40,049 bases of DNA from assembly GCA_030524785.1 (NCBI GenBank), contig JAUNFZ010000019.1, positions 1 to 40,049 of the forward strand. The letters run 5' to 3'. Of this stretch, positions 1-18,170 are shown piece by piece. The translations under genes were made by a program, and so were the position numbers. The notes under the pieces are model-generated. The model did no database searches. It was not told where the DNA came from and worked only from the letters and a program-made list of their open reading frames with translations. This stretch comes from Eubacteriales bacterium. Its GTDB lineage: Bacteria > Bacillota > Clostridia > Lachnospirales > Lachnospiraceae. Each line of letters opens with the position of its first letter. Position 1 is the stretch's first letter.

Positions 1-66
1 AGCCGTCAGCAGACGGGCGATGAGACACAGAACAGCCGTCAGCAGACGGGCGGTGAAACAAAGAAC
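1..66 (+). repeat. 33-bp tandem repeat, two copies
   Basis: Bases 1-33 and 34-66 are two copies of a 33-bp unit differing at three positions. In the AAA+ reading frame each encodes an 11-residue unit (SRQQTGDETQN, then SRQQTGGETKN). More copies may lie upstream of the window edge. Confidence 0.9.
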
Positions 67-1035
67 AAACGGCGTGAAGAAAAGCCCGTGATAGACCGTG
101 ATAAACTGCGGGCGATTAAGGAAGAACAGAGTGTTAGGAAAATTGTCTGGCCGGATGAGATTGCCGCTCCGATCAAACAGGAGGTCTACGGTCAGGACGC
201 GGCCATAGATACACTCTCCGACGCCATTGTGATCAACCGGATGCAAAAGAAAGACAAGCTTCTTGTCATGGCGTTTCTCGGGCCGCCGGCTACCGGAAAA
301 TCCACCGTAGGGAGAGCTTTGGCGGAAGTTCTGTCTGAACTTTATGGAAACCGGTATGGGTTTATCGAGATTTCCGCGAACGAATATACCCAGGAACATA
401 TGGTACAGAAAGTGCTCGGAGCGCCTCCTGGCTACACTGGTTATGGGCAGACGACCGTTCTGGAGCCGGTGCGGAAAAATCAGTATCACGTCATTTTGAT
501 TAATGAGATTGAGAAGGCTCATGAAAAATTGCTCGTGGCTCTTATGGAGGCTATGGATACGGGTTTTCTCGGCATGGCGGACAATTCGCCGGCAATTGAT
601 TTGAATCACTGTATTCTGCTTTTTACTTCTAATATACCAATTGATATGGAAAACTACCGTATAGCTTCGGAGTTTGAACGGTCCGAATTGTGCAAGGATG
701 CGTTTACGAAACACTGCGGGCGTTCGGAAATCAGCCGGAGGATTCAGGATTTTATAGTGTTTGTGCCGCTTTCTGAGGACGCCAGAGTAGACGTTATCAT
801 CAAATTTGCCAGGAAGGCGCTGGCGGATATGGATGCGGAACTGATTAAGATCGACGAGCGTCTTATGGCCGATTTCCTGAAATATAAAACGAAATATGGC
901 GCTTCCGAGTTAGGCAACTATGTGACCCGCGCAATCGGAAAAAAGATGCTGAAAACCAGACAGCCCGATTTGGTAAGGGGAAAAAAGGTAACTGTTTACG
1001 GGACAGTGGACAGCATTGAGTTTCAGGTTTCATAG
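1..1035 (+). CDS. Clp/HSP100-type AAA+ ATPase (5' partial)
   Basis: A single AAA+ module of the ClpA/ClpB D2 type. Counting from the in-frame GTG at 88, it shows Walker A GPPATGKST (65-73), the pore loop GYTGYG (115-120) expected of substrate-threading Clp unfoldases, Walker B HVILINEIEKAH (134-145), sensor-1 FTSN (179-182) and an arginine-finger-like stretch (SRRIQDF). The reading frame is open from base 1, so the gene almost certainly starts upstream, and 88 is only the first possible start inside the window. The upstream residues form two copies of an 11-residue SRQQTG-type repeat, a likely hydrophilic linker. In Walker B the usual Asp before the catalytic Glu is Asn (INEIEK). An ATG with a strong ribosome binding site follows 11 bp after the stop, so it is probably the front of the operon running to 9028. 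Likely role: ATP-driven remodelling or unfolding of a protein in this pathway. The AAA class is sure; the substrate is unknown. Confidence 0.85.
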   Translation, partial: SRQQTGDETQNSRQQTGGETKNKRREEKPVIDRDKLRAIKEEQSVRKIVWPDEIAAPIKQEVYGQDAAIDTLSDAIVINRMQKKDKLLVMAFLGPPATGKSTVGRALAEVLSELYGNRYGFIEISANEYTQEHMVQKVLGAPPGYTGYGQTTVLEPVRKNQYHVILINEIEKAHEKLLVALMEAMDTGFLGMADNSPAIDLNHCILLFTSNIPIDMENYRIASEFERSELCKDAFTKHCGRSEISRRIQDFIVFVPLSEDARVDVIIKFARKALADMDAELIKIDERLMADFLKYKTKYGASELGNYVTRAIGKKMLKTRQPDLVRGKKVTVYGTVDSIEFQVS

Positions 1036-1046
1036 AGGAGGGGAAA

Positions 1047-3005
1047 ATGAGTAAAATTATGCAGATGATAGAGAACATCGGGAAGACGACAGGTGTGGAT
1101 ATATATCAACCTAAGGACAGCGCGCCGGACATACACTGTCCGGATGGCAGTGCGGCAGATTGGCGTATGGAAAGGGGGAGCATAATGAGACGAATAAGAA
1201 CAGGAGGAACGAGAAAGAGGCGTATGGCAGCCAGGCCATATCATGGAGACGGCACATGCCATGAAAACAGAATGTACCATGGAGGCGGCACATGTCATGA
1301 AAACAGAATGTACCGTGAAGATGGGGCATGTAAGAAGACGGACACCACAGCGATACAGTTTGCAGAAAATGTTCTTAAGGAATTTCGCGTAACCGTCGGC
1401 CGGTATCCTGCGGAGACAGGAGGAATGTTAGCCTGCAGCGGCGCTTTGGAGGTAGTAGATACATGGTGCTTCGATGAAAAATCGAAAAATACGAGCGCTT
1501 CTTATTCTTATGACGCAGAGTCCATGACTGCGGTATTCAGGCAGTGGAAAGCCCGGGGAATACAAAGCGTTGGCTTCGTCCATTCGCATCCTCTGACTTA
1601 TAGACGCCCTTCTTATGACGATATTGCCACGGCATATGCGCTGATGAAATTTTTCCGGAATGACTTTTTCTATATGCCGATCATCATGAGCCACCGGAAA
1701 GGACTGTTTACCATGTATTTCTTTGTCGTGAGGAGATACGGAAGCGTCCTTAACGTGAATTTGGACTACGTACTGCAGGCGCAGAAAGATGGGTATGAAA
1801 TGCCGCAGTTTAAGCCATGGGAAGAAAATTATTCTATTGCAGAGCTGGAAGCTTATTACCGGCGCGTAAACGGCCAGGATGACGAAAGGACGGCAGCGCC
1901 AAAGGTGGCAGCGGTGAAAACAGCAACGCCGAAGCCGGTGGAAGTGGCAGCAGAAGCAGCGGCGCCGAAGTCGGCGGAAGTGGCAGAAGAAACAGCGGCG
2001 CCAAAGGTGGCGGCGGCAGAAACGACGGTACTGAAGCCGACGGCGACAGCGGCAGGAACACCGGCGCCGGATTATTTTCAGAGAATCAGGGGTGTATATC
2101 CGGAACATGTGCTGGATAAGGTGAATGTGATCTTCGGTGTCGGCGGAGCAAGGACCATTGCGGAAAATCTGGCGAGAAATGGGTTCCGAAATTATATCCT
2201 GATCGACGGCGACAGGATTGCGCCTTCCAACATTGCAACGCAGGGAGTGTTCATTTCCGAGATGGGAATGTATAAGGCAGACGCAATTGCCCGGAGAATT
2301 ACCGATATCAATCCGCGTGCCAGAGTACTGCGCATAAACCGGTTTCTGGACGATAATATGTCAGATGAAGAATTTGAAAATATTTTGAAAGCGTTTCCCG
2401 GCAAAAAGCCCACGGATTACCTGATTTACGGATGCACAGACAGCTTTGAAGCGAATAAGCGCAGCTCCCTTTTAAGCCTGAAGTATGGGATTCCCTATAT
2501 CGGAGCAGGCATGTACAGGCAGGGACTTGGGGCGGAGGTGATTTTTACCTATCCGGGAGTGACAAAGAGCTGTCCGCGCTGCCTTTTGAAACCGCGCTTC
2601 GAGGCAAATGAAAATGGCTATATCAACGACGTGACTTCCGCAGGATGTCCTACCTTTGCCACAGAGAGGCTTAACACACTGATTGGATACATTGCGCTGA
2701 TGATTCTGATGTACAAGGAAGCGCCGGGCAGTCCTTATGATAGGATGCTGGATGAAATCAAGGACAGAAATTTTGCGTGGATTCGCCTGACGCCTTATCT
2801 TGGAACTTCCGAGCTGGCAATTGGACTGTTTGACAGGGTGTTTGCGGATCCGAAAGTTTCAAAATACACATTTATGGACGAGACACTGTGGATTCCACAG
2901 CATCCGGATTCCCCGGAATACGGCGCCGAAACATGCAGATTATGCGGCGGTACAGGCGATTTGACACTGCTGAAAAATAAGTGGCCGGACACCAGGAAGG
3001 TATAG
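1047..3005 (+). CDS. JAB/JAMM isopeptidase - ThiF/E1-like adenylating enzyme fusion
   Basis: A 652-residue two-domain protein. The N-terminal half carries a complete JAMM metalloprotease signature: Glu123 (ETGG), H179-S-H181-P and S189-x-x-D192. JAMM domains cleave isopeptide bonds or process ubiquitin-like (Ubl) proteins. An Ala/Pro/Lys/Glu-rich linker (about 283-341) joins it to an E1/ThiF/MoeB-like Rossmann domain with GVGGAR (364-369), the LIDGDRIAPSN nucleotide loop, GCTDSFEANKR (462-472) and a candidate thiol Cys534 in AGCPTF. CPRC (509-512) and CRLC (630-633) form the Cys4 zinc site usual for MoeB/ThiF-type E1 enzymes. Residues about 65-96 hold Cys-containing 12-residue repeats. The start is set by a strong AGAGGAGGGG site 5 bases upstream of the ATG. 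One polypeptide could therefore both activate and remove a Ubl. Both domains are clear; the Ubl partner is not in the window. Confidence 0.9.
   Translation: MSKIMQMIENIGKTTGVDIYQPKDSAPDIHCPDGSAADWRMERGSIMRRIRTGGTRKRRMAARPYHGDGTCHENRMYHGGGTCHENRMYREDGACKKTDTTAIQFAENVLKEFRVTVGRYPAETGGMLACSGALEVVDTWCFDEKSKNTSASYSYDAESMTAVFRQWKARGIQSVGFVHSHPLTYRRPSYDDIATAYALMKFFRNDFFYMPIIMSHRKGLFTMYFFVVRRYGSVLNVNLDYVLQAQKDGYEMPQFKPWEENYSIAELEAYYRRVNGQDDERTAAPKVAAVKTATPKPVEVAAEAAAPKSAEVAEETAAPKVAAAETTVLKPTATAAGTPAPDYFQRIRGVYPEHVLDKVNVIFGVGGARTIAENLARNGFRNYILIDGDRIAPSNIATQGVFISEMGMYKADAIARRITDINPRARVLRINRFLDDNMSDEEFENILKAFPGKKPTDYLIYGCTDSFEANKRSSLLSLKYGIPYIGAGMYRQGLGAEVIFTYPGVTKSCPRCLLKPRFEANENGYINDVTSAGCPTFATERLNTLIGYIALMILMYKEAPGSPYDRMLDEIKDRNFAWIRLTPYLGTSELAIGLFDRVFADPKVSKYTFMDETLWIPQHPDSPEYGAETCRLCGGTGDLTLLKNKWPDTRKV
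1250..1337 (+). repeat. Tandem repeats encoding Cys-containing units
   Basis: Inside the JAB-E1 gene, a unit of about 36 bp is repeated nearly exactly twice and then a third time in decayed form. It encodes YHGDGTCHENRM, YHGGGTCHENRM and YREDGACKK. The repeats lie N-terminal to the JAMM domain in a region I do not recognise. The His and Cys in each unit could bind a metal, but this is only a possibility. Confidence 0.75.
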
Positions 3006-3038
3006 CCTTAAAGATCACGCTGCCAGAGGAGGTGCGAG

Positions 3039-3347
3039 ATGAGAGAATTTATAGACGGAACGGACGAGCAGTTTGCAAACCTGAAAAAATCCCTTCAGGA
3101 TGAAAAATGCCATGTATATCATAAATGCAAGCTTCCCTCCTGCTGCAGCAGGCAGATGTGCAGTATCGCCTTTGAAAAGGACATGGATGCATATACGCTT
3201 TTAATCGACAATGGGATTGTCTGCTCTAAGACACTGGGCGGGACTGCGCTGGTACTGTTCAGGCAGTGGCTGGCGGCGGGCAGAATCATATTTCTTGATT
3301 TTAATGATTTGAAGGAATTTCTGAAAAGTCTGTGGATTCTTTATTAA
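3039..3347 (+). CDS. Small Cys-rich protein of unknown function
   Basis: A 102-residue protein I do not recognise. It starts 33 bp after the JAB-E1 gene behind a good AGAGGAGGTG ribosome binding site. Residues 24-41 hold a dense cysteine cluster (C24, C30, C35, C36, C41; a further Cys at 62), which suggests a metal site or disulfides. The C-terminal half is hydrophobic and aromatic (FLDFNDLKEFLKSLW) but lacks a convincing membrane helix. There is no C-terminal Gly-Gly, so it does not look like the missing ubiquitin-like modifier. Its position between the E1/JAB gene and the E2-like candidate suggests a role in the same pathway; this is inference only. Confidence 0.7.
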   Translation: MREFIDGTDEQFANLKKSLQDEKCHVYHKCKLPSCCSRQMCSIAFEKDMDAYTLLIDNGIVCSKTLGGTALVLFRQWLAAGRIIFLDFNDLKEFLKSLWILY

Positions 3348-3356
3348 AGGCTTCTG

Positions 3357-3372
3357 CCCGTCAGAGGACGGG
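3357..3372 (+). promoter_or_regulatory. Hairpin overlapping the first ribosome binding site of the next gene
   Basis: CCCGTC (3357-3362), loop AGAG, GACGGG (3367-3372): a perfect 6-bp stem. It overlaps the GGGAGG at 3370-3375 that would serve the upstream ATG at 3384. A second AGGGAG at 3391-3396 serves the in-frame ATG at 3405 and is left free. Confidence 0.45.
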
Positions 3373-3404
3373 AGGCATGGGTAATGATGAAGGGAGAATT
3401 TATT

Positions 3405-3905
3405 ATGAACGAAAGGTATGTATGGATAGGAATCATTCTGTTTGTGATAGTGATAGCGGCGGCTGTCAAAATTTGTGTTCAGATTTCCCATGAGTGCAGA
3501 AGCAGCCGGCAGCGCGTCAGGGCAGTCTCCGGACGGAACCAGGTTCAGAGAACGCTTTCCGGCAGGAACGAAGCTCAGAGAACACTTTCCGGCGAGCGGA
3601 CCGAATTTGGACCTGTAAATTATTTTGCAAACGACCGGCATCAAAGCAAGGATAAATGGTTTCAGTTTAAATATAAGAAGGTTGGAGGCAAGTGGCTTGC
3701 CTATATTCAGAGGATGCCCAATTTGAATGGACGGGATCCCAATCTTCATTTCACGCATCGCTATCACAGTGAGAATATGTACTGGGTCTGCTACGATCCT
3801 CAGCCGGAGACGCTTAAGGACGCTCAGATTGTAAGTAAGAGATGGGCAGACCGAGAGCTGGAATACATATCAACGGGGATAAAGTTTGAAGATCAGAGGT
3901 GGTAA
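3405..3905 (+). CDS. Membrane-anchored protein with an E2-like C-terminal domain (candidate)
   Basis: A 166-residue protein: one N-terminal membrane helix (WIGIILFVIVIAAAVKI), a linker with two 10-residue SGRN..QRTL repeats, and a compact soluble domain of about 90 residues. That domain runs KWFQFKYKK, KWLAYIQRMP, LHFTHRYH, MYWVCYDPQP, then a helix TLKDAQIVSKRWADRELEYI. Several strands, a His, a single Cys (Cys129 from this start) in a tight turn and a closing helix with a conserved-looking Trp resemble the core of prokaryotic E2 conjugating enzymes, and the gene lies beside an E1-JAB fusion. I could not confirm the fold; it may be an unrelated conserved domain. The start at 3405 has AGGGAG 8 bases upstream; an in-frame start at 3384 would add seven residues. 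The stop abuts the next gene. Confidence 0.6.
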   Translation: MNERYVWIGIILFVIVIAAAVKICVQISHECRSSRQRVRAVSGRNQVQRTLSGRNEAQRTLSGERTEFGPVNYFANDRHQSKDKWFQFKYKKVGGKWLAYIQRMPNLNGRDPNLHFTHRYHSENMYWVCYDPQPETLKDAQIVSKRWADRELEYISTGIKFEDQRW

Positions 3906-3907
3906 GA

Positions 3908-4633
3908 TTGAAAAAATGTCCAAATCCGGATTGTGAGACGTTTTTCCTGTATGGAGATGACAAAGTCGTATGTCCTTTTTGCCGCGGCAGGCTTGTTGAC
4001 ACCGCGCAGAATGCGGCGGAGCAGGGAATCCGTGATACAGGCAGAGCAAGACTTCCTCAGATGCAGCATGGTACGGCAGAGTTTGTGCGAAGCTGTTTTG
4101 GAGGCATTGAATGTCACGGAAGAATTGTGGAGATCGATCATCAGGAGCTCTTTTATTCCAACAGGCATAAGATGTTCAACACCATTTTCCGGGGCGAGCC
4201 CTATCAACTTGCCCACCAGTCTGTGGAATATACCATAAGAGTGGAGAATATCACGGATGGCTTTGCTGCTGAGGTAATGGATTTCTGCCTGTATGGAAGC
4301 TATCTCGGAAGATTCCAGGTGGGGGATGAGGTGGTAATCAGGGCAAAAGATCTGGGAAACAGAAGGGTTGTCAGATCAATCTATAATGAGACGACTTCCT
4401 CAAGGGTATTTCCGGGATTTCAGATTCCAGCGGGTTTGCTCCGGGGATTTATATTACTGATCGCATTTGCAGTGATTGCCATGATCTGTCAGCTGACGGC
4501 GCTTTTTCAAACTGGCGCGATTGCTGCCGGGGTTATGGCGTTGGCGGCGGCGCTGATGCCTTCGGTCATCATCATCGGAGCTATCTGGTATGTACTGCGA
4601 AGTGTCTTTTTTCCGCGGCGAAGAAGGAGGTAA
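3908..4633 (+). CDS. Zinc-ribbon membrane protein, unknown function
   Basis: A protein of about 241 residues. It opens with a zinc ribbon (CPNPDC then CPFC, about 18 residues apart), continues with a soluble beta-rich segment (FGGIECHGRIVEID to VGDEVVIRAKDLG) and ends with two hydrophobic helices (GFILLIAFAVIAMICQL and the segment ending IIIGAIWYVL) before an Arg-rich tail. The middle part has the feel of a small OB/SH3-like barrel, but I do not recognise a family. I prefer the TTG start at 3908: AGAGGTGG lies 5 bases upstream and the previous stop ends at 3905. A GTG at 3899 is possible but poorly supported by a ribosome binding site. It probably acts at the membrane with the neighbouring single-helix E2-like candidate. 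Confidence 0.75.
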   Translation: MKKCPNPDCETFFLYGDDKVVCPFCRGRLVDTAQNAAEQGIRDTGRARLPQMQHGTAEFVRSCFGGIECHGRIVEIDHQELFYSNRHKMFNTIFRGEPYQLAHQSVEYTIRVENITDGFAAEVMDFCLYGSYLGRFQVGDEVVIRAKDLGNRRVVRSIYNETTSSRVFPGFQIPAGLLRGFILLIAFAVIAMICQLTALFQTGAIAAGVMALAAALMPSVIIIGAIWYVLRSVFFPRRRRR

Positions 4634-4636
4634 ACA

Positions 4637-7114
4637 ATGGATATTTACCGGCAGAACTTTTTGAAAGCACAGAAGATTGCAGAAAACATAGTAATGCTCA
4701 ACAGAAATCAGTTTCTGTCCCAGAGGGCGGGCAGCATACGTCTGGATGGCTATTCATACGTTCCGGCTGTTTCAGACTGGTATCGTCTGGGCGGTTTTCG
4801 GATGAAGTCCGGGGAGGAGCCCGCCAGGCAGGCGGCAAAAGAGGCAGTGTATGAATGGATCAGAAGCTCCGAAGCTCATGGAAACAGTCTTGCTTTTGTG
4901 ATTGCCGCAAGGGACGGAAATCTGGATGTATTTTATGGCTCGGGAAGAAGCGACGGCGCGGAAATGTTCTTTAAAAGAGCCCTTCCGGAGTGCGAGGGAA
5001 CTTACACGGGCTGGGAGGGAGCGGCGTACCCGTATAATGGGCTTTTGCTTGGCACGATAACGTCGGAGCATAGTTCTGATGTTATCGCCAGTGCCGGAAT
5101 ACAGGATTTTTATGCGGCATGCATCAGCATACCGGTTCCGGAGGAAGATATTCCTGAAAGAATTGCGGAAAATGAAAGCATACTTTCCTATTTAAACGAC
5201 TATAAATCCTTCCGGCGTACTTACGGAAACGCGAGCAAACGGGTGGAGGAGGTACAGATTCCGGCGGTAGTCCGGGCGATTTCCATTCTGAAAGAAGAAA
5301 ATGAGTATCTTGCGGAAAATATGGCAGGTGGGTTTGCGCGATGCGCGGTGCGCTTTGGCGCCTCTGACGCCCACAAGTACCAAAGACTTAAATCCCTGCT
5401 GATCTCCTGCATGAACCGCACCGGTGAATCTTCCCGGGGCTTTGAACCGGCCAGGTGTTTTGATATAGAAGGACGCCATGCCGGATGGCGGGAATGTCTG
5501 GCGATTCCCTGTATAGAGCTTGACGGCGGCAGGCAGTATCTGACCACGGGGCAGACGGCTCAGGGAGCCGCAGGTTTTTGCACCCCTCCGATACACTCAT
5601 ACAAGGGATTTTATGTAAAGAATTATCGCGTCGACGAAAATGCTGCGGAGGATTTCCCTCTGACAAGGCAGGAAGTCTCACCCGGCGTCAGCATAGGAAA
5701 AGTAAAAAACGCCGGATGGGAGGCAGCGGTTCCATACAGAGCAATACTGGCGCATGCTTTTGTATGCGGAGCACCGAACAATGGAAAGACAACCACCGTA
5801 AAACGTATTCTGAAAGAGCTTAACGATCAGGGGATTCCCTTTACTGTGATCGAGGCCGCAAAAAAAGAGTATATCGGGCTGATGCCGCAGGTTCCGGAAC
5901 TTAAGATTTATACGCCCGGTACGGACGGTCTGAAGCTCATGATAAATCCCCTGCAGCCGGAAGAAGGAGTGCTGATTGAAAATCAGGTGGACGCGGTAGT
6001 CCGGGCTGTCGTCGCCTCCCATGGCGGCGAACATCCGATTCCCGAAGCGCTGGAAGGACTTTTGAAGCAGACTTATGAAAAAGCCGGCTGGGAATATGGA
6101 ATGATGGCGTATCACGATAAAAACCATCCCTTTCCCGTCTTTGCGGACGCATTAAAAAACATACCGGAATACATAGAGCGTCATGCAAGGTACGGGCCGG
6201 AGGTAAGGAAAAATCTGCAGGCGGCGCTGACCCTGCGCACAGAAAATCTTGCCTCCGGAGCTCTGGGAAGAATGGTAAACCATGCCTTTGGGATGACGGC
6301 AAAGGATATTCTTGCGTGTCCTTCTGTAATTGAGCTTGCAGATTTTTCCAGCGGTGCGGCAGAATTTCTGACGAACATTCTGATGTTTCAGCTGCACAGC
6401 TATCTGGCAAGACTTCCGGAGGAACATTCGCTGAAGCGGGTGATTGTGGTGGAAGAAGCCCACAATGTATTTCGCAGAACCTGGAACGAGGAGAGCGGGC
6501 GGGCGCTGAATAACCAGTATTTTGAAAAAATGCTTGCCGAGATCAGGAGTTCGGGAACAGGAATGATTCTCTGCGATCAGAGACCGAGCATTATGTCCGA
6601 GGCAGTGATGGCGAATACGGCGGTAAAGATTGCCCACTCGCTGGGCGCGGCGGAGGACAGAGAACTGATTGGAAAAGCAATGGGTCTTTCAGAATTTCAG
6701 ACAGAAAAGATACGGGAATTTTCCGTTGGGGAATGTATTATTGGAATCGGAGGTACTTATGGCGTGCAGCATGCGCAGATTAGGAAGCTGCAGGAAGCCG
6801 GGGCGAACAATGCAGCGTGCCATATCTGCTGTAGCCGCTTCCGGTGCAGAAGGGAGGCAGTCTGCAACTTGATCCATGGAATGGACAGGGAGAAGGTGAC
6901 ATACCATCTGGCAAAAATACAGAGTAACCCTTATAATGTAAAAAAACTTGCGGCCAATATTGAGAGAATGCTTTTGGATCTCAATGTGATAGCCTCCGCC
7001 GGGACAAAGGTGTGTCTGCTGGGAGAAATTCTGCGTCAATATGGAAACTTGTCATTTCAGGACGGCAGAGTGATTGTAAACGCATATTCAGAATATGTAA
7101 GGAGGGGTGCATGA
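4637..7114 (+). CDS. HerA/FtsK-type ATPase (DUF87-like)
   Basis: An 825-residue P-loop ATPase of the HerA/VirB4 type. Walker A is GAPNNGKTT (378-386), Walker B RVIVVEEAHN (601-610), followed by the family's LCDQRPS motif (645-651) and a C-terminal region with HSLGAAEDRELIGKAMGL, typical of HerA-like motors. Residues 1-350 are a family-specific N-terminal region that I cannot assign. A Cys cluster (C728, C731, C732, C737, C743) near the C-terminus may bind zinc. HerA-type ATPases form hexameric rings that move DNA or protein, and are recurrent in DNA-end processing, conjugation and phage defence. It starts 3 bp after the zinc-ribbon gene with AGGAGG upstream, and its stop overlaps the next start (ATGA), so it is co-translated with both. 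No NurA-type nuclease is adjacent. Confidence 0.85.
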   Translation: MDIYRQNFLKAQKIAENIVMLNRNQFLSQRAGSIRLDGYSYVPAVSDWYRLGGFRMKSGEEPARQAAKEAVYEWIRSSEAHGNSLAFVIAARDGNLDVFYGSGRSDGAEMFFKRALPECEGTYTGWEGAAYPYNGLLLGTITSEHSSDVIASAGIQDFYAACISIPVPEEDIPERIAENESILSYLNDYKSFRRTYGNASKRVEEVQIPAVVRAISILKEENEYLAENMAGGFARCAVRFGASDAHKYQRLKSLLISCMNRTGESSRGFEPARCFDIEGRHAGWRECLAIPCIELDGGRQYLTTGQTAQGAAGFCTPPIHSYKGFYVKNYRVDENAAEDFPLTRQEVSPGVSIGKVKNAGWEAAVPYRAILAHAFVCGAPNNGKTTTVKRILKELNDQGIPFTVIEAAKKEYIGLMPQVPELKIYTPGTDGLKLMINPLQPEEGVLIENQVDAVVRAVVASHGGEHPIPEALEGLLKQTYEKAGWEYGMMAYHDKNHPFPVFADALKNIPEYIERHARYGPEVRKNLQAALTLRTENLASGALGRMVNHAFGMTAKDILACPSVIELADFSSGAAEFLTNILMFQLHSYLARLPEEHSLKRVIVVEEAHNVFRRTWNEESGRALNNQYFEKMLAEIRSSGTGMILCDQRPSIMSEAVMANTAVKIAHSLGAAEDRELIGKAMGLSEFQTEKIREFSVGECIIGIGGTYGVQHAQIRKLQEAGANNAACHICCSRFRCRREAVCNLIHGMDREKVTYHLAKIQSNPYNVKKLAANIERMLLDLNVIASAGTKVCLLGEILRQYGNLSFQDGRVIVNAYSEYVRRGA

Positions 7115-8223
7115 TGGGTGAAACGGGCGGAGATTATGATGACGGCATCGGGATCGGCGCAGAGGACGGAGAAGTGTCTGAAACGGCGGCTTCCTCAGAG
7201 GCGGACAATATAGAAGCACCGGCGCCGGAAACGTTGACAGCAGGAACGTCGGCAGAAGGAGTGTCGTCGGGAGTATCGGCAGAAGGAATGGCGCCGGGAG
7301 GACCGACAGAAGGAATTGCGTTGGGCACGGCGGCAGTATCGGGGCGCGCCGGGGGATTTGAGACGGCCGGACGCTCTGATATGGAATTTTCGTCGTCCCG
7401 CGGCAGCGAGATTTCCGTAAACTCTTATGAAACGAACCATGGGATGAACCAGATACTGGAGACGCCGGATACATTGGAGCAGGCGCAGAGGAGCGTGGAA
7501 TCTTATCATCAGCAGTCAATCGCGCAGATTCTTGCGATGAACGGACAGTATATGTCCGAGGCGGACCGGGAAAGGGTAGCCCGGGGAGCCGACAGGGTGA
7601 GGGCTATAGAGCATAATCCCTGCAGCAGAAAAGGGGGCAGCTACAGCTTTTGGGAGGGCAAAAGCAGTATTGAGGTATCCGCCATAGACCAGCAGCAGAT
7701 GGAGCGCTCAACAAAACATGAGACAAACCATTTTGCCAGCAAAAACAGAGAAATTATTGTCCCGCAGCCTGAAAAGGGAGGATATACGGTGCATCATACG
7801 GTGGGAACTCGCCAGTCCAGCTGGTTTCATTCCACAAGAACAGGAGAGAATTTCGATTATTCTGAAAAAGGGCGCGGGCTGAACGAAGGAATTACCACAA
7901 TGTACACAAATCAGCAGCTTGCTGAAATAGATCCTGAAAAGGGAGAGACGGCGCGGCAGCAGGGAATCTATCCCCACGCCACGGAAATATGCGCGCAATT
8001 AGAGTCGATCGTCGGCCAGGACACCGTAAAAGAAGCCTATTACGGAGGAAACATACAGGAGCTTGAGGCAAAAGTAAATTCTCTTGCAGGAGAAAAAGGG
8101 TATGAATCCCTGCGGGAATGTCTTGACAGAACGCTCTCAAAAGATCAGAATGAGCGTGTCGAGGCCATGAAGGAGGCTCAGACGATACTGGCGAAAATGT
8201 ACGAGGAGGGAGGCAGAGCATGA
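7111..8223 (+). CDS. Putative gluzincin-type zinc metallopeptidase
   Basis: A 370-residue protein. Residues about 20-90 are a low-complexity Ala/Gly/Ser/Glu region. The central part carries HETNH (203-207), fitting the HExxH zinc-peptidase motif, and GLNEGITTMY with Glu259 about 52 residues later, where gluzincins place their third zinc ligand. The fit of both elements makes a peptidase likely, although I do not recognise the family. There is no signal peptide, so it probably acts in the cytoplasm. The ATG at 7111 overlaps the HerA stop (ATGA) and has GGAGGGG just upstream; an in-frame start at 7012 inside the HerA gene lacks such support. Cleaving conjugates, substrates or Ubl precursors is a reasonable guess given the neighbours, but it is inference. 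Confidence 0.7.
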   Translation: MMGETGGDYDDGIGIGAEDGEVSETAASSEADNIEAPAPETLTAGTSAEGVSSGVSAEGMAPGGPTEGIALGTAAVSGRAGGFETAGRSDMEFSSSRGSEISVNSYETNHGMNQILETPDTLEQAQRSVESYHQQSIAQILAMNGQYMSEADRERVARGADRVRAIEHNPCSRKGGSYSFWEGKSSIEVSAIDQQQMERSTKHETNHFASKNREIIVPQPEKGGYTVHHTVGTRQSSWFHSTRTGENFDYSEKGRGLNEGITTMYTNQQLAEIDPEKGETARQQGIYPHATEICAQLESIVGQDTVKEAYYGGNIQELEAKVNSLAGEKGYESLRECLDRTLSKDQNERVEAMKEAQTILAKMYEEGGRA

Positions 8224-8603
8224 TAGAATTTGTATTGGACTATATGGAACAAAAGGGGTACTGGGCAGATGCAGCGGCGGAGCAGGAAAGGCTTGAACAG
8301 GGCATCCGGCTCTGGCTTTCGGAAAACGGCATTTCTGAGACGGCCACGGGCGAGTATTACAAAAAATATGTAAAGGATTATTTGGAGATGATTGCGCCCC
8401 AGGATCTGAAAAGTTATTTTTGCTGTTATCCGGTAATCAGCGAGATACATCAGATTGCGATTGAGCAGAAGACGGACGGGAGCATTACGGAGGAAAGAAG
8501 ACGCAGACTGTACGGATTAATGAAGGAGCTTCACCAGAGCGGTCTGGGAGAAAAATATGTTCCAATTCAGGAAGTGAAAGCGGCCCTGGGAGGTTTTTCA
8601 TGA
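8220..8603 (+). CDS. Hypothetical protein of the E1-JAB/HerA operon
   Basis: A 127-residue, mainly helical, acidic protein I do not recognise. Its ATG overlaps the stop of the metallopeptidase gene (ATGA) and its own stop overlaps the next ATG in the same way, so translation is coupled across all three. No membrane segment, signal peptide or metal motif is visible. The C-terminus ends ALGGFS; the Gly-Gly is not terminal, and the sequence does not look like a beta-grasp fold. Confidence 0.7.
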   Translation: MIEFVLDYMEQKGYWADAAAEQERLEQGIRLWLSENGISETATGEYYKKYVKDYLEMIAPQDLKSYFCCYPVISEIHQIAIEQKTDGSITEERRRRLYGLMKELHQSGLGEKYVPIQEVKAALGGFS

Positions 8604-9028
8604 ATTTTGCGATGGACGAAAAGAAAATTTATCTGGAACCAGTATGGGAAGCCGATGAAAACGGCGGTCTGGAATTGTATCTTAATCTTCCGCTTGAAAA
8701 AGAAAAGCATTATTTTGTGACCTGCTGGAAGCCAAAACAGTTGGCGGTATTTGAGGGAGAGGAAGATTTTGAATCGATGGTTTCTATCGCAATGCTGGGA
8801 TTTTATACGGAATACGGACTGAGTTCCGACGCGCTTGAGGAGATGATCAGCAGTATGAGTGGTCTGGAATACAAAGATTCTGCGGGCTACCTTATGCCGG
8901 AACTGTTCTGGGAAATGCTGTGGATGGAGCAGACGAAGACAGAGTGGCAAAACTTCTGTTTTGCGTATCAGCCGGCAGAAAATCACGTGGGAGGGCTGAC
9001 AGGGTTTCTTTTGGCGGAAGACGCCTGA
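8600..9028 (+). CDS. Hypothetical protein, last gene of the E1-JAB/HerA operon
   Basis: A 142-residue acidic protein rich in Glu, Trp and Phe, with no family I recognise. It starts at an ATG overlapping the previous stop (ATGA). The N-terminal half looks beta-rich (IYLEPVWEAD, LELYLNLPL, HYFVTCWKP, QLAVFEGEED) and the C-terminal half helical. No catalytic motif is evident. The next gene has its own promoter, so the operon probably ends here, though I see no terminator between them. Confidence 0.65.
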   Translation: MNFAMDEKKIYLEPVWEADENGGLELYLNLPLEKEKHYFVTCWKPKQLAVFEGEEDFESMVSIAMLGFYTEYGLSSDALEEMISSMSGLEYKDSAGYLMPELFWEMLWMEQTKTEWQNFCFAYQPAENHVGGLTGFLLAEDA

Positions 9029-9143: not shown

Positions 9144-9896
9144 ATGATTTATATTACCGGAGATACCCATGGAGAAATGAACCGCTTGAATACAACCGCT
9201 TTTCCTGAACAGAAAAGTCTGACGAAAGAAGATGTTGTGATTATCTGCGGAGATTTTGGCCTGGTGTGGGACTACAGGGGAGAAAGCCCCTTCGAGCGGC
9301 ACTGGCTTGACTGGCTGGAGCAAAAGACGTTTACGACAGTTTTTGTGGATGGAAATCATGAATGTTTCGCCCGCTTAAAGGAGTATCCGGTCAGGAAATG
9401 GAGGGGAGGGTCAGTCCATGAGATACGCCCCTCTGTGCTTCATTTGATGCGGGGCGAGATCTTTGAAATCAGCAAAAAGCGCATCTTTGCCTTTGGCGGC
9501 GCTTCCTCCCACGATATGCCAGACGGGCTGCTGGACCCAGAGAAGGATGCAGGGAAAATAAAAAGCTTTCGAAAGCGCTGTGATAAATACTACCGCGTGA
9601 TCGGGCAGACCTGGTGGTCGGAGGAGCTTCCCAGTCAGGAAGAAATGGAGCGGGGCCGGAATAACCTTGAGACCTGTGGAAATCAGGTAGACTTTATCGT
9701 AACTCACTCACCGTCCGACAGTGTACTGAGGCTTGTGGGGGAGGGAGACGGTAAGAGAGACATTCTGACAGAATATCTTGAAGAAATCAAACAGAAGGCC
9801 GCCTATCGGAAATGGTTTTGCGGCCATCTGCACTGTGACAGGAGCGTTTCTCCCAGTGAGGAGATCCTGTATGAGCGGATTGTCAGAATCTTATAA
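9144..9896 (+). CDS. Calcineurin-like metallophosphoesterase
   Basis: A 250-residue metallophosphoesterase with the di-metal motifs in order: GDTHGE near the N-terminus, GDFGLVW, GNHE, and GHLHCD near the C-terminus. These enzymes hydrolyse phosphomono- or phosphodiesters, and the substrate cannot be told from sequence. The start at 9144 is chosen because GGAGGTGAGG lies just upstream and the protein then begins MIYITGDTHGE, with the first metal motif at the usual N-terminal position; the longer frame from 9039 adds unrelated residues across the promoter. The separate promoter suggests independent control from the operon before it. A GC-rich hairpin and the Sel1-repeat gene follow. Confidence 0.85.
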   Translation: MIYITGDTHGEMNRLNTTAFPEQKSLTKEDVVIICGDFGLVWDYRGESPFERHWLDWLEQKTFTTVFVDGNHECFARLKEYPVRKWRGGSVHEIRPSVLHLMRGEIFEISKKRIFAFGGASSHDMPDGLLDPEKDAGKIKSFRKRCDKYYRVIGQTWWSEELPSQEEMERGRNNLETCGNQVDFIVTHSPSDSVLRLVGEGDGKRDILTEYLEEIKQKAAYRKWFCGHLHCDRSVSPSEEILYERIVRIL

Positions 9897-9965: not shown

Positions 9966-10637
9966 ATGGAAAGCGTTGGCGTAAAAGAAAAATCAGAGTG
10001 GGAACGAATACGGGATATGGAGTGGGACTCGGATGAAGAAAAGGCAGCGTGGCTTCGCAGGGAATCGCGAAAGGGAAGTACAGCCGCGAAGGTCTGGCTC
10101 GGAAATTGTTATGAGGAAGGGGAAGGCGTACAAAAGGATTACAAAGAAGCGGTTAAGTGGTACCGGAAAGCGGCAAAGCTTGGAGATGCAAAGGGACAAT
10201 GGTCTCTTGGAAATTGCTATTATTTTGGCGATGGCGTGAAAGTGAACCGGAAAAAAGCTGTCTGGTGGTATCAAAAGTCTGCAGAGCAGGGCGATCCTGC
10301 CGGACAGGGCTCCCTGGCGCGGTGTTATCGGGATGGGGAGGGCGTGGAACAAAATATGCAGGAAGCGGTGCGCCTGTATATCAAATCCGCAAAGCAGGAT
10401 GATATGATCAGTCAGATAGAGCTGGCAGAATGTTACAGCCGTGGTGTTTCAGGAAACCCGAAGCGCGACAGCAAAGAGGCGGTTTACTGGTACCGCAGGG
10501 CTGCAAAGCAGAATTACGGTCCGGGTAGGCTGTATTTGGAGAAATGTTATGCCGGCGGCATGGGTGTGCCCCAGGACGCCGACGAGGCAGAAAAATGGAA
10601 AAAGAGCTATGAAGAATGGGATAAGAAGGAGGACTGA
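9966..10637 (+). CDS. Sel1-like repeat protein
   Basis: A 223-residue protein made of about five Sel1-like (TPR-related) repeats; the pattern A...LG.CY..G.GV..D..EAV.WY.KAA..GD recurs from about residue 38 to the C-terminus. Such helical solenoids are scaffolds for protein-protein contacts. No signal peptide is visible, so it is probably cytoplasmic, unlike many exported Sel1 proteins. It starts 69 bp after the metallophosphoesterase, behind GGAGGGAG, and may share its transcript. A terminator hairpin lies right after the stop, inside the end of the convergent PAP2 gene. Confidence 0.88.
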   Translation: MESVGVKEKSEWERIRDMEWDSDEEKAAWLRRESRKGSTAAKVWLGNCYEEGEGVQKDYKEAVKWYRKAAKLGDAKGQWSLGNCYYFGDGVKVNRKKAVWWYQKSAEQGDPAGQGSLARCYRDGEGVEQNMQEAVRLYIKSAKQDDMISQIELAECYSRGVSGNPKRDSKEAVYWYRRAAKQNYGPGRLYLEKCYAGGMGVPQDADEAEKWKKSYEEWDKKED

Positions 10638-11289: not shown

Positions 11290-12999
11290 TTATGCCTTCT
11301 TTGCCTGTCCGGTGATTGTCTTAACGCCTTCCACGGCGAGTACAACAGCCAGAATAACAAGCAGAGTACCAAGGCCTGCACGAATCCAGTTCCACATATC
11401 CACAGCGTTTGTCACGTTCGTGATGATGGTCTGGATCAGGGATACGATGGTAACTACCAGCATGAAAGCCATCGGGAACAGGAACATCTTGTTGTTCTTG
11501 CCCATTTTGCCAAGCCATGCTGCAACAGCCAGAAGGCCGAGAGCAGCCAGCAGCTGGTTTGCGGCTCCAAACAGTGCCCAGATTTTTGCATATCCTGTCA
11601 TACCAAGAGCAACACCCAGCACAACCGTGATAGCGGTTGCCACATACGGGTTTGTCAGAACCTTTTTAAAGCCTGTTGCGTCTTTATAGGTCTGTCCCGG
11701 CTCCAGCCAGAATTCCTGGAACATGTAACGTGCCAGACGGGTTGCCGTATCCAGAGAAGTCAGGCAGAACGCAGATACCGCCAGGATCAGCATGGAGTAG
11801 ATTACGTTCTCAGCGCCTGCCAGGAACGGGATCGTAGCGCACATGCGGGAGATACCCGTTGCAAATACTGCCGTCGGGGTGGTAATGCCGCCCGGAACAT
11901 ATTCTTTCCAGATGTAACCTACGGCACACAGGGAAATCAGTGCCAGCGCACATTCAATCAGCATACCGCCGTATGCGATCGGACGGGCGTCGCTTTCTTT
12001 GTCGAGCTGTTTTGCCGTTGTACCGGAACCAACCAATGAGTGGAAACCGGAGATGGCGCCGCAGGCGATGGTGACAAACAGTGCCGGGAACAGGCTGCCC
12101 AGAGAGCTGCCTACGCCGTATTCAGCCGTGTCCACAAATCCCGTGAAAGCAGGGATCTCCAGAGAAGGATGAGCGCCTACGATACCTACCACAGCGATAA
12201 TCATCATGCCGTAAAGCAGGAAAGAACTCAGGTAGTCACGGGGCTGCAGAAGGATCCACACCGGCGTAACGGATGCGATTGCGATATAAATACCTACGAT
12301 AATCATCCAGGTGCTGCCGTTTAAGTAGATCGGATGCCAGTTATAGCCGATGGCCATACATGCAACAATAGCGACAACGCCGATAACGGTAGAAACAATC
12401 AGTGAAGCGTTTCTTCTGTAAACCATAACGCCGAAGATAATAGCGATTACGATAAACAGAATGGAGATCATGGCTGTACGCGCGTTTGCAGCGCTTGCCA
12501 CCATATCCAGCGCACCGGCTTCATCATAAGTAGCCTTAAATGTATTTGCAACGATAGAAGCAAATGCGGCCACAACCAGAATCAAGGTCAGATATGAGAA
12601 GATGATAAACAGCTTCTTTGCTCTGGTGCCGATACTTGTTGCGATAACTTCGCCGATGGACTGTCCTTTGTTTCTTACAGATGCGAACAGCGCGCCAAAG
12701 TCATGAACAGCGCCGAAGAAAATACCTCCGATCAGAACCCAGAGCATAACCGGAACCCATCCGAATACTGCGGCCTGAATCGGGCCGTTAATCGGGCCTG
12801 CGCCTGCAATTGAAGAAAAGTGATGGCCCATCAGAACAGGTGCCTTTGCCGGAACGTAGTCGTTGCCGTCCTCCAGCTCATGGGCAGGCGTCACTTTGCT
12901 TTCGTCAACGCCCCACTGGTCTGCCAGCCATTTGCCGTAGGTAACGTAGCCGATTACCAGCACGATGATACCTACAATTAGTAATAATGCTGCATTCAT
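11290..12999 (-). CDS. cstA: CstA/BtsT-family carbon starvation transporter
   Basis: A 569-residue polytopic membrane protein of the CstA (peptide/pyruvate carbon starvation) family. Typical features are the N-terminal helix, the segment HHFSSIAGAGPINGPIQA, the GAVHDFGALF motif, and a C-terminal half with FGAANQLLAALGLLA. Members take up pyruvate or small peptides, with the substrate uncertain here; the protein is slightly shorter than the enterobacterial form. It is second in a two-gene operon, 3 bp after the gene at 13003-13539, with the promoter at 13628-13656. No dedicated two-component system is adjacent. Confidence 0.92.
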   Translation of the reverse strand: MNAALLLIVGIIVLVIGYVTYGKWLADQWGVDESKVTPAHELEDGNDYVPAKAPVLMGHHFSSIAGAGPINGPIQAAVFGWVPVMLWVLIGGIFFGAVHDFGALFASVRNKGQSIGEVIATSIGTRAKKLFIIFSYLTLILVVAAFASIVANTFKATYDEAGALDMVASAANARTAMISILFIVIAIIFGVMVYRRNASLIVSTVIGVVAIVACMAIGYNWHPIYLNGSTWMIIVGIYIAIASVTPVWILLQPRDYLSSFLLYGMMIIAVVGIVGAHPSLEIPAFTGFVDTAEYGVGSSLGSLFPALFVTIACGAISGFHSLVGSGTTAKQLDKESDARPIAYGGMLIECALALISLCAVGYIWKEYVPGGITTPTAVFATGISRMCATIPFLAGAENVIYSMLILAVSAFCLTSLDTATRLARYMFQEFWLEPGQTYKDATGFKKVLTNPYVATAITVVLGVALGMTGYAKIWALFGAANQLLAALGLLAVAAWLGKMGKNNKMFLFPMAFMLVVTIVSLIQTIITNVTNAVDMWNWIRAGLGTLLVILAVVLAVEGVKTITGQAKKA

Positions 13000-14212: not shown

Positions 14213-16642
14213 GTGGAAACGATTCGGATTTCCGTCCGCAATCTTGTGGAATTTATTCTGCGAAGCGGCGATATCGACAACCGGCGCGGTACGCTGGCGG
14301 AAAAAGAGGCGATGCAGATGGGCAGCCGCCTTCACCGGAAGATTCAGGGGCAGATGGGCGCTGCTTACCGGGCGGAGGTTCCCTTAAAAAGAGAGATCGA
14401 CTGCGATACGTTTCTGCTTTCTGTGGAAGGCCGTGCCGACGGCATTTTTACAGAAAAAGAGAGTGTGTGGATCGACGAGATCAAAGGAGTATTCCGGGAT
14501 CTGAGCAGGCTTGAGGAGGCCGTGCCGGTACATCTGGCTCAGGCGAAGTGCTACGCGTATTTATATGGAGAAGAACAGGGGCTTGAGCGCATAGGCGTTC
14601 AGATGACGTATGCGAATCTGGATACGGAGGAAGTGCGCAGGTTTCGCCGGGAATTTGATCTGGAGGAACTGCGGCTGTGGTTTGAGGATCTGACGGGTCA
14701 GTACCGCAAATGGGCTGAATTTCAGATCGAGTGGAGAAAAATACGCCAGGCCTCCATCGGGGCAACGGTATTTCCGTACCCCTACCGGGAGGGCCAGAAG
14801 TCTCTGGCCGCGGCGGTGTACCGTACGGTGCAGCGCCAGAAAAAGCTGTTTATTCAGGCGCCTACCGGAGTCGGAAAAACGATAGCGGCAGTGTTTCCGG
14901 CGGTAAAGGCCGTCGGGGAAGGACTGGGGGAGAAAATTTTTTATCTGACGGCAAAGACAATCACCAGAACGGTGGCCCAGGAAGCGTTCTCTCTTTTAAA
15001 AGAGCAGGGCCTTCGCTATAAAGTGATTACCCTCACGGCAAAGGAAAAAATATGTATGTGCCCTGAGCCGGACTGCAATCCCGAGAAGTGCCCCTATGCC
15101 AGGGGACATTACGACCGCATTAACGACGCTGTGTTCGAGCTTCTGACCGGGTGGGGCAGCACACAGGAGCATGCGGAGGTTTCCGGTGTCAACGACAGCT
15201 ATACCAGGGAGGCGCTGATTGCCCACGCCGAAAAGTGGCAGGTGTGTCCCTTCGAACTGTCCCTGGACATGTCCCTGTGGGTGGATGCCGTGATCTGCGA
15301 TTATAATTACGTATTTGACCCCCAGGCGAAATTGAAGCGCTTTTTTGCGGACGGGGTAAAGGGAGACTATATTTTTCTGATCGACGAAGCACATAATCTG
15401 GTAGAACGGGGCCGGGAGATGTACAGCGCTTCCTTATATAAAGAAGACTTTTTAGAGATAAAGCGCCTGCTGGCGCCAGTGAGCGCGCAGGCGGCCAGGG
15501 CTCTGGAAAAATGCAACAGATATTTGCTGGAAATGAAAAGGGAATGTGAATCCTATGAACTTCTGAAGGATATCGGGCTGTTTGCGATATCTTTAATGAA
15601 CGCAGCCTCGCGTCTGGAGGCTCTTTTGGAGGAGGATAAAAGTCCGCTGAACCGTTTGGAGCAGCAGGATTTAAATGATGGTGATGGGGAAGCACTGCGG
15701 AAAAAAGTGCTGGATTTCTATTTTCAGGTGAGAAATTTTCTTTCCATATATGAGGAACTGGACGACAGCTACGAAATTTATACGCAGCATACCCCGGAGG
15801 GCCGATTTAAGCTGAAGCTGTTCTGCATCGACACGGCGGGGAAAATTGGCAATTGTCTGGCGAAAGCCAGGGGAACCGTTCTTTTTTCTGCAACGCTTCT
15901 GCCGGTGCGCTATTATATGAAGCTTTTGTCGGGCACGGAGGAGGATTATGCGGTGTATGCGCAGTCGCCCTTTGACCCCGCACAGAAAAAAATTTTGATT
16001 GCATGCGACGTCAGCAGCCGCTATACCAGAAGAAATGCCCGGGAATATCAGAAGATCGCCGCCTATATTCTGGAGATGGCGAAGGCCCGGCAGGGAAATT
16101 ATCTGGCGTTTTTTCCATCCTATAAAATGCTGGAGGAAGTGCGGGAAAGCTTTGAGGAGCTGGCGCCCGGGAACGTGCGCGTGCTTTCCCAGAGCAGTCA
16201 TATGTCTGAGCAGGAACGGGAGGAGTTTCTTGCGGAATTTTCGGAGGATCAAAGCGGATCGCTGGTGGGTTTCTGCGTGCTTGGAGGTATTTTTGGAGAG
16301 GGAATCGACCTGAAAAAGGAGCGCCTTATCGGTGCTGCAGTTGTAGGTACGGGGCTTCCCCAACTCTGCGAGGAAAGGGAAATACTGAAGCAGTATTACG
16401 ACCGCCGGGATATGGACGGCTTTGCCTATGCATACCAGTATCCGGGGATGAACAAGGTGCTGCAGTCCGCCGGGCGGGTGATACGAACGTCTCAGGACCG
16501 GGGCGTGATTCTTTTGCTGGACGAACGCTTTTTTCACAGCAGATACCGTGAAATTTTTCCGAGGGAATGGGCAGATTATGAGAGATGCAGTCTTTCGGAC
16601 GTGCAGGGAAAATTAAAAAATTTCTGGAACAGATTTGCATAA
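14213..16642 (+). CDS. PD-(D/E)XK nuclease - XPD/DinG-family helicase fusion
   Basis: An 809-residue protein. The N-terminus looks like a RecB/Cas4-type PD-(D/E)XK nuclease: His41 (GSRLHRK), Asp76 in GRADG, E89-I-K91, and a following Gln110. The helicase part has Walker A APTGVGKT (216-223), four or more cysteines between motifs I and II (C281, C283, C288, C293, and C345 in VCPFE) that fit the iron-sulfur domain of XPD-type helicases, the DEAH box at 391-394, and a C-terminal motor domain ending in the motif QSAGRVIRTSQDRG. Such enzymes unwind DNA 5' to 3' and probably act in repair. The GTG start has GGGAGGTGAG just upstream. Its stop lies 23 bp before the MATE start; the two may be co-transcribed. 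Confidence 0.88.
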   Translation: METIRISVRNLVEFILRSGDIDNRRGTLAEKEAMQMGSRLHRKIQGQMGAAYRAEVPLKREIDCDTFLLSVEGRADGIFTEKESVWIDEIKGVFRDLSRLEEAVPVHLAQAKCYAYLYGEEQGLERIGVQMTYANLDTEEVRRFRREFDLEELRLWFEDLTGQYRKWAEFQIEWRKIRQASIGATVFPYPYREGQKSLAAAVYRTVQRQKKLFIQAPTGVGKTIAAVFPAVKAVGEGLGEKIFYLTAKTITRTVAQEAFSLLKEQGLRYKVITLTAKEKICMCPEPDCNPEKCPYARGHYDRINDAVFELLTGWGSTQEHAEVSGVNDSYTREALIAHAEKWQVCPFELSLDMSLWVDAVICDYNYVFDPQAKLKRFFADGVKGDYIFLIDEAHNLVERGREMYSASLYKEDFLEIKRLLAPVSAQAARALEKCNRYLLEMKRECESYELLKDIGLFAISLMNAASRLEALLEEDKSPLNRLEQQDLNDGDGEALRKKVLDFYFQVRNFLSIYEELDDSYEIYTQHTPEGRFKLKLFCIDTAGKIGNCLAKARGTVLFSATLLPVRYYMKLLSGTEEDYAVYAQSPFDPAQKKILIACDVSSRYTRRNAREYQKIAAYILEMAKARQGNYLAFFPSYKMLEEVRESFEELAPGNVRVLSQSSHMSEQEREEFLAEFSEDQSGSLVGFCVLGGIFGEGIDLKKERLIGAAVVGTGLPQLCEEREILKQYYDRRDMDGFAYAYQYPGMNKVLQSAGRVIRTSQDRGVILLLDERFFHSRYREIFPREWADYERCSLSDVQGKLKNFWNRFA

Positions 16643-16665
16643 ACAAGATACGGAGGCAGTTTGCG

Positions 16666-18042: not shown

Positions 18043-18094
18043 CGGCGGAAAAATCTGAAAAAAATATAAAATTTATAAATTTTGCCTCCGGTTT

Positions 18095-18128
18095 GTTGAC
18101 ATATGAAAACCGGGGGTTAATATGTAAC
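18095..18128 (+). promoter_or_regulatory. Promoter and operator-like inverted repeat before the RND gene
   Basis: TTGACA (18096-18101), 16-bp spacer, TAATAT (18118-18123). An inverted repeat ACATAT (18099-18104)/ATATGT (18120-18125), extended by GTT/AAC with one bulge, covers both hexamers, as expected of a repressor site. Confidence 0.6.
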
Positions 18129-18170
18129 TAGGTATGTGAGGGATGAGTAAAAATTGAGGGAGGATAGTCC

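Follow-up and report, generated by a model that had tools for sequence, protein, structure and literature searches.

A run of nine genes at the beginning of the window (the whole stretch analysed here, 40,049 nucleotides, bases 1-40049 of contig C98 from an incomplete gut-bacterium genome of 2.75 Mb in 114 contigs) raises the question of whether enzymes of ubiquitin-type chemistry and a protein unfoldase act in one pathway. The first-pass annotation of this DNA had proposed a ubiquitin-like conjugation system joined to an unfoldase. The link between the E1/JAB enzyme and the unfoldase is upheld by the occurrence of these genes together in two settings, and is stronger and more specific than could be seen at first. 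The enzymatic part of the proposal holds; its ubiquitin and E2 parts have so far found no support. The conserved heart of the gene set, which is new here, consists of three genes: a JAB-E1 fusion, a ClpB/ClpC-type AAA+ protein and a small gene termed orf4. We tentatively read this core, with a probability of about 0.42, as a three-part protein-handling machine in which the E1 domain activates a non-canonical partner, the JAB domain reverses this step and the unfoldase acts on the product.

The first setting is a large operon, found in the window and in a Clostridia metagenome-assembled genome (MAG; L007, JAEEIT010000032.1). The second is a mobile form in which orf4, JAB-E1 and the AAA+ gene stand without the other operon genes, at one locus of a genome from the same family (L009, in G260) and on two IMG/VR contigs (L047 and L055). 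The trio stands together in both forms, and its AAA+ protein carries an N-terminal domain resembling the product of orf3, another gene of the operon. A sixth locus, in a Blautia MAG (L008, JAPFCU010000001.1), shows JAB-E1 and orf4 on a contig that is cut ahead of the AAA+ gene. L047 is close to L009, and L055 is more distant; a profile built without the orf4 copy of L055 picked this copy up at E 1.1e-23. In the L009/L047 pair, the only one close enough to measure, the trio genes are under purifying selection, with ratios of nonsynonymous to synonymous substitution (dN/dS) of 0.19 for orf4, 0.11 for JAB-E1 and 0.14 for the AAA+ gene.

The neighbours of the L009 trio match MT-A70 (1e-26), a type IV secretion system coupling-type ATPase (8.1e-10) and Replic_Relax (4.1e-44), and the L055 contig also carries a resolvase (4.8e-32). 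Judged from gene context alone, the probable role of the trio would lie in conflicts that set mobile elements, phage and host against one another. Upstream of the trio, the L055 contig (1-6851) holds a set of genes resembling type I restriction and one for a P-loop protein, both assigned by eye. The trio is narrowly distributed. No orf4 was found in 249 other genomes of the family (E <= 1e-4), and profiles of JAB-E1, orf4 and orf3 gave no match (E <= 1e-3) near other viral Clp ATPases in 78 loci, which are the best 80 of 530 viral AAA+ loci minus the L047 and L055 contigs. The window JAB-E1 has no match on plasmids or phages at E <= 1e-10. The L009 JAB-E1 finds matches there to its E1 part only, in five plasmid records and one phage record and over at most 42% of the query, and the L009 orf4 finds none on plasmids.

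The JAB-E1 gene (1047-3005, forward strand) encodes 652 amino acids and matches Prok-JAB (8e-9) and ThiF (8.6e-18) in Pfam. The initial claim of a complete JAMM isopeptidase fused to an E1/ThiF domain is confirmed by these matches and by the full motif, which in the window reads E123 followed by HSHP-x6-SYDD and is complete in all five copies that contain the JAB part (window, L007, L009, L047 and L055); L008 lacks this part. The Cys4 zinc site first reported for the E1 domain is likewise present, at C509/C512/C630/C633, and the four cysteines are kept together with the GxGG adenylation loop in 6/6 copies. The low-complexity linkers of the window protein (1237-1330 and 1890-2060) comprise, by eye, an in-frame repeat and a stretch rich in Ala, Pro and Lys. 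In NCBIfam the window E1 domain comes closest to 6A-MBL cap2_3, at 1e-15, with a score of 57 bits that stays far below the cut-off of 320; the E1-E2 models of PADLOC match it weakly.

The AAA+ gene (1-1035, forward strand) is incomplete, and its 5' side cannot be read because the window begins at base 1 of the contig. The readable part is of the ClpB/ClpC D2 type (Pfam AAA_2, 2.6e-23) and contains the pore loop GYTG, in agreement with the unfoldase and Clp pore loop originally described. An orf3-like domain opens the AAA+ proteins of L007 (7124-8425), L009, L047 and L055, and by analogy with L007 the missing N-terminus in the window is probably an orf3-like domain as well. The gene orf3 itself (3039-3347, forward strand) encodes 102 amino acids; the window product matches the L055 AAA+ protein at 4e-5, and its P33 and C36 are invariant in 7/7 aligned rows.

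The two forms differ in a short loop after sensor 1. A motif of the form [ILV]G[FL] is met only in the mobile form, as IGF, 12-14 residues past the sensor-1 TSN in 3/3 proteins (L009, L047 and L055), and is lacking in both the window and L007 proteins (0/2); the L008 contig is without the AAA+ gene. In an alignment that included two proteins of the window's own genome named by eye as ClpC (L052) and ClpB (L051), the IGF of L009 and L047 occupies the columns in which the presumed ClpC has LGF. This loop in ClpC docks ClpP. The mobile-form AAA+ protein would, on the evidence of its sequence, dock on ClpP in the same way. By chance the loop motif appears in 0.3-1.5% of shuffled segments from five core proteins. 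In 78 viral Clp-like proteins the motif lies at the loop place in 46 and is lacking in one, and 31 offer no anchor for the test.

The third core gene, orf4 (3405-3905, forward strand; a second open start, ATG at 3384, lies upstream), encodes in the window a product with one transmembrane segment by hydropathy and a soluble domain, as the earlier description of a membrane protein with a soluble part had it; no such segment is predicted in L009. The aligned domain contains an invariant histidine, H57, and, 11 residues further on, an invariant cysteine, C68, in 7/7 rows. A Pfam search with the window domain gave nothing up to E 10, and the orf4 profile matches no PDB sequence, E2 included, at E <= 5; the E2-like character first suggested for this soluble part thus finds no support in sequence. 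A HicB-like antitoxin was considered and rejected (hhalign probability 0.1), in a comparison with a rough alignment of 15 open reading frames (ORFs) of which at least two (L148 and L149) do not look HicB-like by eye.

Taken together, the three products suggest the following scheme. The E1 domain would adenylate the C-terminus of a small partner other than a canonical Gly-Gly ubiquitin-like protein (Ubl). The best-placed candidate for this partner is orf4, which could serve as the acceptor through its invariant cysteine or could itself be activated. The JAB domain would take off the attached group or trim the partner, and the orf3-like N-domain of the AAA+ protein would recognise the product and feed it into the pore. 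In the mobile form, where the AAA+ protein may work on the ClpP of the host through the IGF loop, the outcome would be degradation.

The results that weigh against this scheme begin with the small ORFs. Among 187 same-strand ORFs of 35-160 amino acids around the six loci there is no conserved protein with a Gly-Gly tail, nor a conserved C-terminal Gly. Seven small ORFs from the vicinity of the operons were compared with Pfam, and none resembled a Ubl family at E <= 1. The C-termini of orf4 vary between copies. The only small ORFs common to the large-operon and mobile branches are the orf4 copies. Upstream of the L007, L009 and L055 genes no Ubl could be recognised, and the ubiquitin-like modifier foreseen by the first-pass annotation is not supported over the loci and ORFs searched. 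GG occurs within the last five residues in 5/187 ORFs: in the window orf8 (the relatives in L007 and L008 lack it), in one unshared ORF each of the window and L007, and in a 64-residue ORF of L009 and L047. The latter ends in GGQW and was among the seven ORFs searched in Pfam; it was set aside as a modifier, having a relative in L055 without GG and a membrane-like sequence. The C-terminal GG of orf7 was rejected as a Ubl tail because its codons fall within the orf8 ribosome-binding site, and orf9 was rejected because it is not conserved. A Ubl without Gly-Gly, or one supplied in trans, is possible.

Supply in trans is the premise of a canonical Ubl pathway, in which the host would provide a ThiS- or MoaD-like Ubl and orf4 would be a divergent E2. 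The window's own genome does contain a separate JAB gene adjoining a ThiF-type gene (L001), and the invariant histidine of orf4 with its cysteine 11 residues on is roughly E2-like, since E2 enzymes have about this His-Cys spacing. The CxxC-containing part of orf5, a further gene of the operon, gives sub-threshold Pfam matches to IBR (0.023) and Prok-RING_1 (0.065), so that an E3-like zinc finger is conceivable there. However, six orf4 rows match no E2 family in Pfam at E <= 10, in keeping with the PDB result. In addition, the L009 orf4 has only ~50 residues ahead of the histidine, where more would be expected of an E2 core, and it would be unusual for a mobile element to depend on a Ubl of its host. 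A Prok-E2_B search in 119 genomes carries no weight either way, having given no match in any control. We regard this pathway as unlikely.

The enzymes supply further points of the same adverse kind. The crossover cysteine of the E1 domain is present in 5/6 copies, with a shift of one residue in L047 and L055, and is absent in L009; a thioester relay is not assured because of these shifts and this absence. An E1 domain whose catalytic cysteine is not common to all copies would also suit an enzyme that modifies a peptide or small molecule in the manner of MccB, or transfers sulfur, with the JAB and AAA+ proteins maturing the product. The E1 profile matches TcdA, PaaA, MccB, UBA5, ThiF and MoeB in the PDB about equally well (5.6e-11 to 2e-8), and the failure to find a Ubl at the loci searched agrees with such a role. 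However, inspection by eye of the ORF lists, which were not scanned systematically, showed no biosynthetic enzymes at these loci, and the association with an unfoldase bearing a ClpP-type loop suggests protein targets; this explanation appears quite improbable.

As for the three-part machine itself, the Walker B motif of the window AAA+ protein reads NE and not DE, and this Asn in place of Asp may make the ATPase weak. The viral set shows the position of the loop and not its chance frequency, because it was chosen by a Clp pattern. Finally, the core is known from six loci, of which L009 and L047 are near-relatives.

The large operon occupies 1-9028 and comprises nine ORFs, all on the forward strand, separated by gaps of 2-57 nt or overlapping by 4 nt when orf4 is started at 3405 and orf5 at 3908. 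Overlaps of 4 nt occur at the final three junctions (HerA/orf7, orf7/orf8 and orf8/orf9). The ORF list and spacing agree with the tight same-strand coupling noted at the outset. L007 and L008 were identified by a pattern search, limited in reach to close relatives, over the contigs of GTDB genomes. In L007 the order is that of the window for eight of nine genes (AAA+, JAB-E1, orf3, orf4, orf5, HerA, orf7 and orf8), all except orf9. The L008 contig opens within JAB-E1, after which come orf3, two copies of orf4, orf5, HerA, orf7 and orf8 (seven genes). Protein identities between the window and these two loci are 40-64% (tblastn). The tandem orf4 duplicate of L008 (1679-2613) ends in FGPE in one copy and in FG in the other. 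The gene cluster is real, rare and conserved beyond chance.

Of the points by which the first-pass annotation asked to be judged, gene order is conserved, and a Ubl was not found as far as the search reached. Carriers of the cluster are few. The window JAB-E1 matches 2/299 family genomes at E <= 1e-20, its own and G260. With a four-row JAB-E1 profile, the window's own genome was the sole match both in the order sample (392 genomes, E <= 1e-60) and in the class sample (391 genomes, E <= 1e-25). The samples share genomes, the matches listed include no more than three scored candidates for any one genome, and the membership of G260 in these two samples is uncertain. Seven genomes of the same genus gave no JAB-E1 cluster, in a search run without a positive control.

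The largest gene downstream of the core (4637-7114, forward strand) encodes a HerA/FtsK-superfamily ATPase of 825 amino acids, and the HerA-type assignment made from the letters holds, with a HerA_C match of 1.1e-7, above the Pfam cut-off, and a P-loop GxxxxGKT at about residue 378. Immediately upstream, orf5 (3908-4633, forward strand) encodes two CxxC-type pairs, a soluble domain and 2-3 transmembrane segments. Its TTG start at 3908 was taken from the alignment; the mechanical start is GTG 3899. Relatives of this HerA protein were found in 15 other genomes of 391 by profile search, among matches listed with at most two candidates scored per genome, and none of the 17 regions concerned has JAB-E1 beside it. 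A viral scan with HerA gave no match. An orf5-like gene adjoins HerA in L029 (E 4.6e-10) and, more weakly, in L033 (8e-4). HerA thus occurs without JAB-E1 in these 17 regions, and HerA and orf5 constitute a second, independently living module. Some HerA regions also hold genes that by eye are Hsp70-like, J-domain-like or actin-like, and AAA+ proteins. One stretch (L048, 1236-13205), with an orf5-like gene, HerA, an acidic repeat protein, an Hsp70-like protein, a J-domain-like TPR protein and an AAA+ protein, all named by eye, is possibly a separate chaperone/HerA system.

The remaining genes follow on the same strand. The product of orf7 (7111-8223) is a predicted HExxH metallopeptidase of gluzincin-like type. 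The HETNH sequence reported earlier is found at H203/E204/H207 and, with a glutamate in a downstream NEG, is invariant in 3/3 copies, a pattern that we take to be a gluzincin trait; the best match of orf7 among PDB sequences has an E of 1.8. The product of orf8 (8220-8603) has 127 amino acids, is kept in L007 and L008, and matches Pfam GP46 below the cut-off (0.0012). That of orf9 (8600-9028, from the ORF list) has 142 amino acids and no counterpart in L007 or L008 at E <= 0.01, and on this evidence orf9 probably lies outside the core. No Pfam match at E <= 1 was obtained for orf3, orf4, orf7 or orf9.

The separate lives of the two modules would also fit a defence island in which the E1/JAB trio and the HerA, orf5 and peptidase genes are neighbours without a joint function. 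HerA relatives occur in 15 genomes without JAB-E1, the trio occurs without this HerA, and in L007 the operon has a TIR/Sel1 gene on one side and an FtsH-like AAA/M41 gene on the other. However, the joint order is identical in three genomes at ~40-64% protein identity, and window genes overlap by 4 nt. We consider an island of separately acting modules unlikely. The L007 flanks have the look of a defence island, with the TIR/Sel1 protein (15857-18964) after the operon and the FtsH-like AAA/M41 protease (1-2181) upstream.

If the three-part machine is accepted, the window form would be a variant in which the loop has been lost and the AAA+ protein acts as a ClpB-like remodeller. The HETNH peptidase, along with a membrane-linked module of HerA and orf5, might then have taken over destruction or export. 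A bolder version, in its entirety rather improbable, would make the trio a self-contained counterpart of the ubiquitin-proteasome system on mobile elements, with JAB-E1 tagging targets with or via orf4 and the AAA+ N-domain reading the tag and feeding host ClpP; the window lineage would since have given up its connection to ClpP, and a membrane-linked HerA motor and a zinc peptidase would form its new outlet.

A palindromic element, CCGTC-N4-GACGG, occurs three times in and around the operon, at window positions 3-16, 36-49 and 3358-3371, and the first two copies fall within in-frame repeats with which the AAA+ frame opens. Downstream of the operon the window encodes a calcineurin-like phosphoesterase (9144-9893) and a protein with Sel1-like repeats (9966-10637, assigned by eye). 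Five genomes of the same genus have the neighbouring carbon-starvation-type gene (11290-12999, named by eye). In all three of these in which the region was compared, blastn similarity to the window ends at 11297-11309, the end of that gene. The first ~11 kb are therefore genus-variable at this site. A PAP2 gene sought in one genus mate gave no match.

Among known systems, the type 6e operon of PMC1779556 combines a polyUbl, an inactive E2/RWD protein, a JAB domain fused ahead of E1 and a zinc (metal-binding) protein. The present genes resemble it in the JAB domain N-terminal to the E1 module, the small partner genes and the sporadic spread. They differ in that no Ubl repeat protein was found here and the core includes a Clp-type unfoldase; in contrast to the inactive E2/RWD protein described there, orf4 keeps an invariant cysteine and has no E2/RWD sequence match. 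The E1 adenylation domain of types 6a-6e and their JAB/JAMM peptidase, fused or adjacent, are both present; the Ubl protein in the operon that marks types 6d and 6e was found neither among the 187 small ORFs nor among the seven compared with Pfam. The FtsH-ternary vWA-MoxR systems of PMC7159879 bring JAB, E1, RING and a Ubl-E2 fusion together with AAA+ proteins, and likewise join Ubl-type enzymes to an AAA+ protein in a conflict setting. Their JAB, E1 and RING are separate there, whereas here JAB and E1 are fused and the AAA+ protein is of ClpB/ClpC type; against their RING and Ubl-E2, no RING above cut-off and no Ubl was found here.

The AAA+ protein shares the D2-type domain and the pore loop with ClpC and ClpA, which work with ClpP, and its mobile form also has an IGF loop at the position that docks ClpP in those proteins. 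It differs in having a single AAA+ domain with an orf3-like N-domain and in having lost the loop in the window and L007. The HerA protein has the motor domain of HerA/FtsK-superfamily conflict ATPases (PADLOC HerA and mads_8) but differs from them in ~370 residues before the P-loop and in its partner orf5, with CxxC-type pairs and transmembrane segments. In CBASS (cyclic-oligonucleotide-based anti-phage signalling system), E1 activates the C-terminus of a non-Ubl protein, and the trio shares E1 and JAB chemistry with CBASS Cap2/Cap3 and with the 6A-MBL cap2_3 anti-phage systems. It differs from CBASS in having an unfoldase. No E2-E1 fusion was found, and no CD-NTase among ten window proteins scanned in Pfam, a scan that a very divergent one could escape. 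No Clp unfoldase in an E1/JAB core is reported in the titles and abstract openings of the literature matches listed, a set lying mostly outside the subscription literature. To our knowledge, the known bacterial E1/E2/JAB systems modify or prime proteins, and none carries a dedicated Clp-type unfoldase within its core operon. If the E1 product does pass to the AAA+ protein and on to ClpP, the trio would stand beside them as an independently built bacterial tag-and-degrade pathway on mobile DNA, in a three-gene form small enough for in vitro reconstitution.

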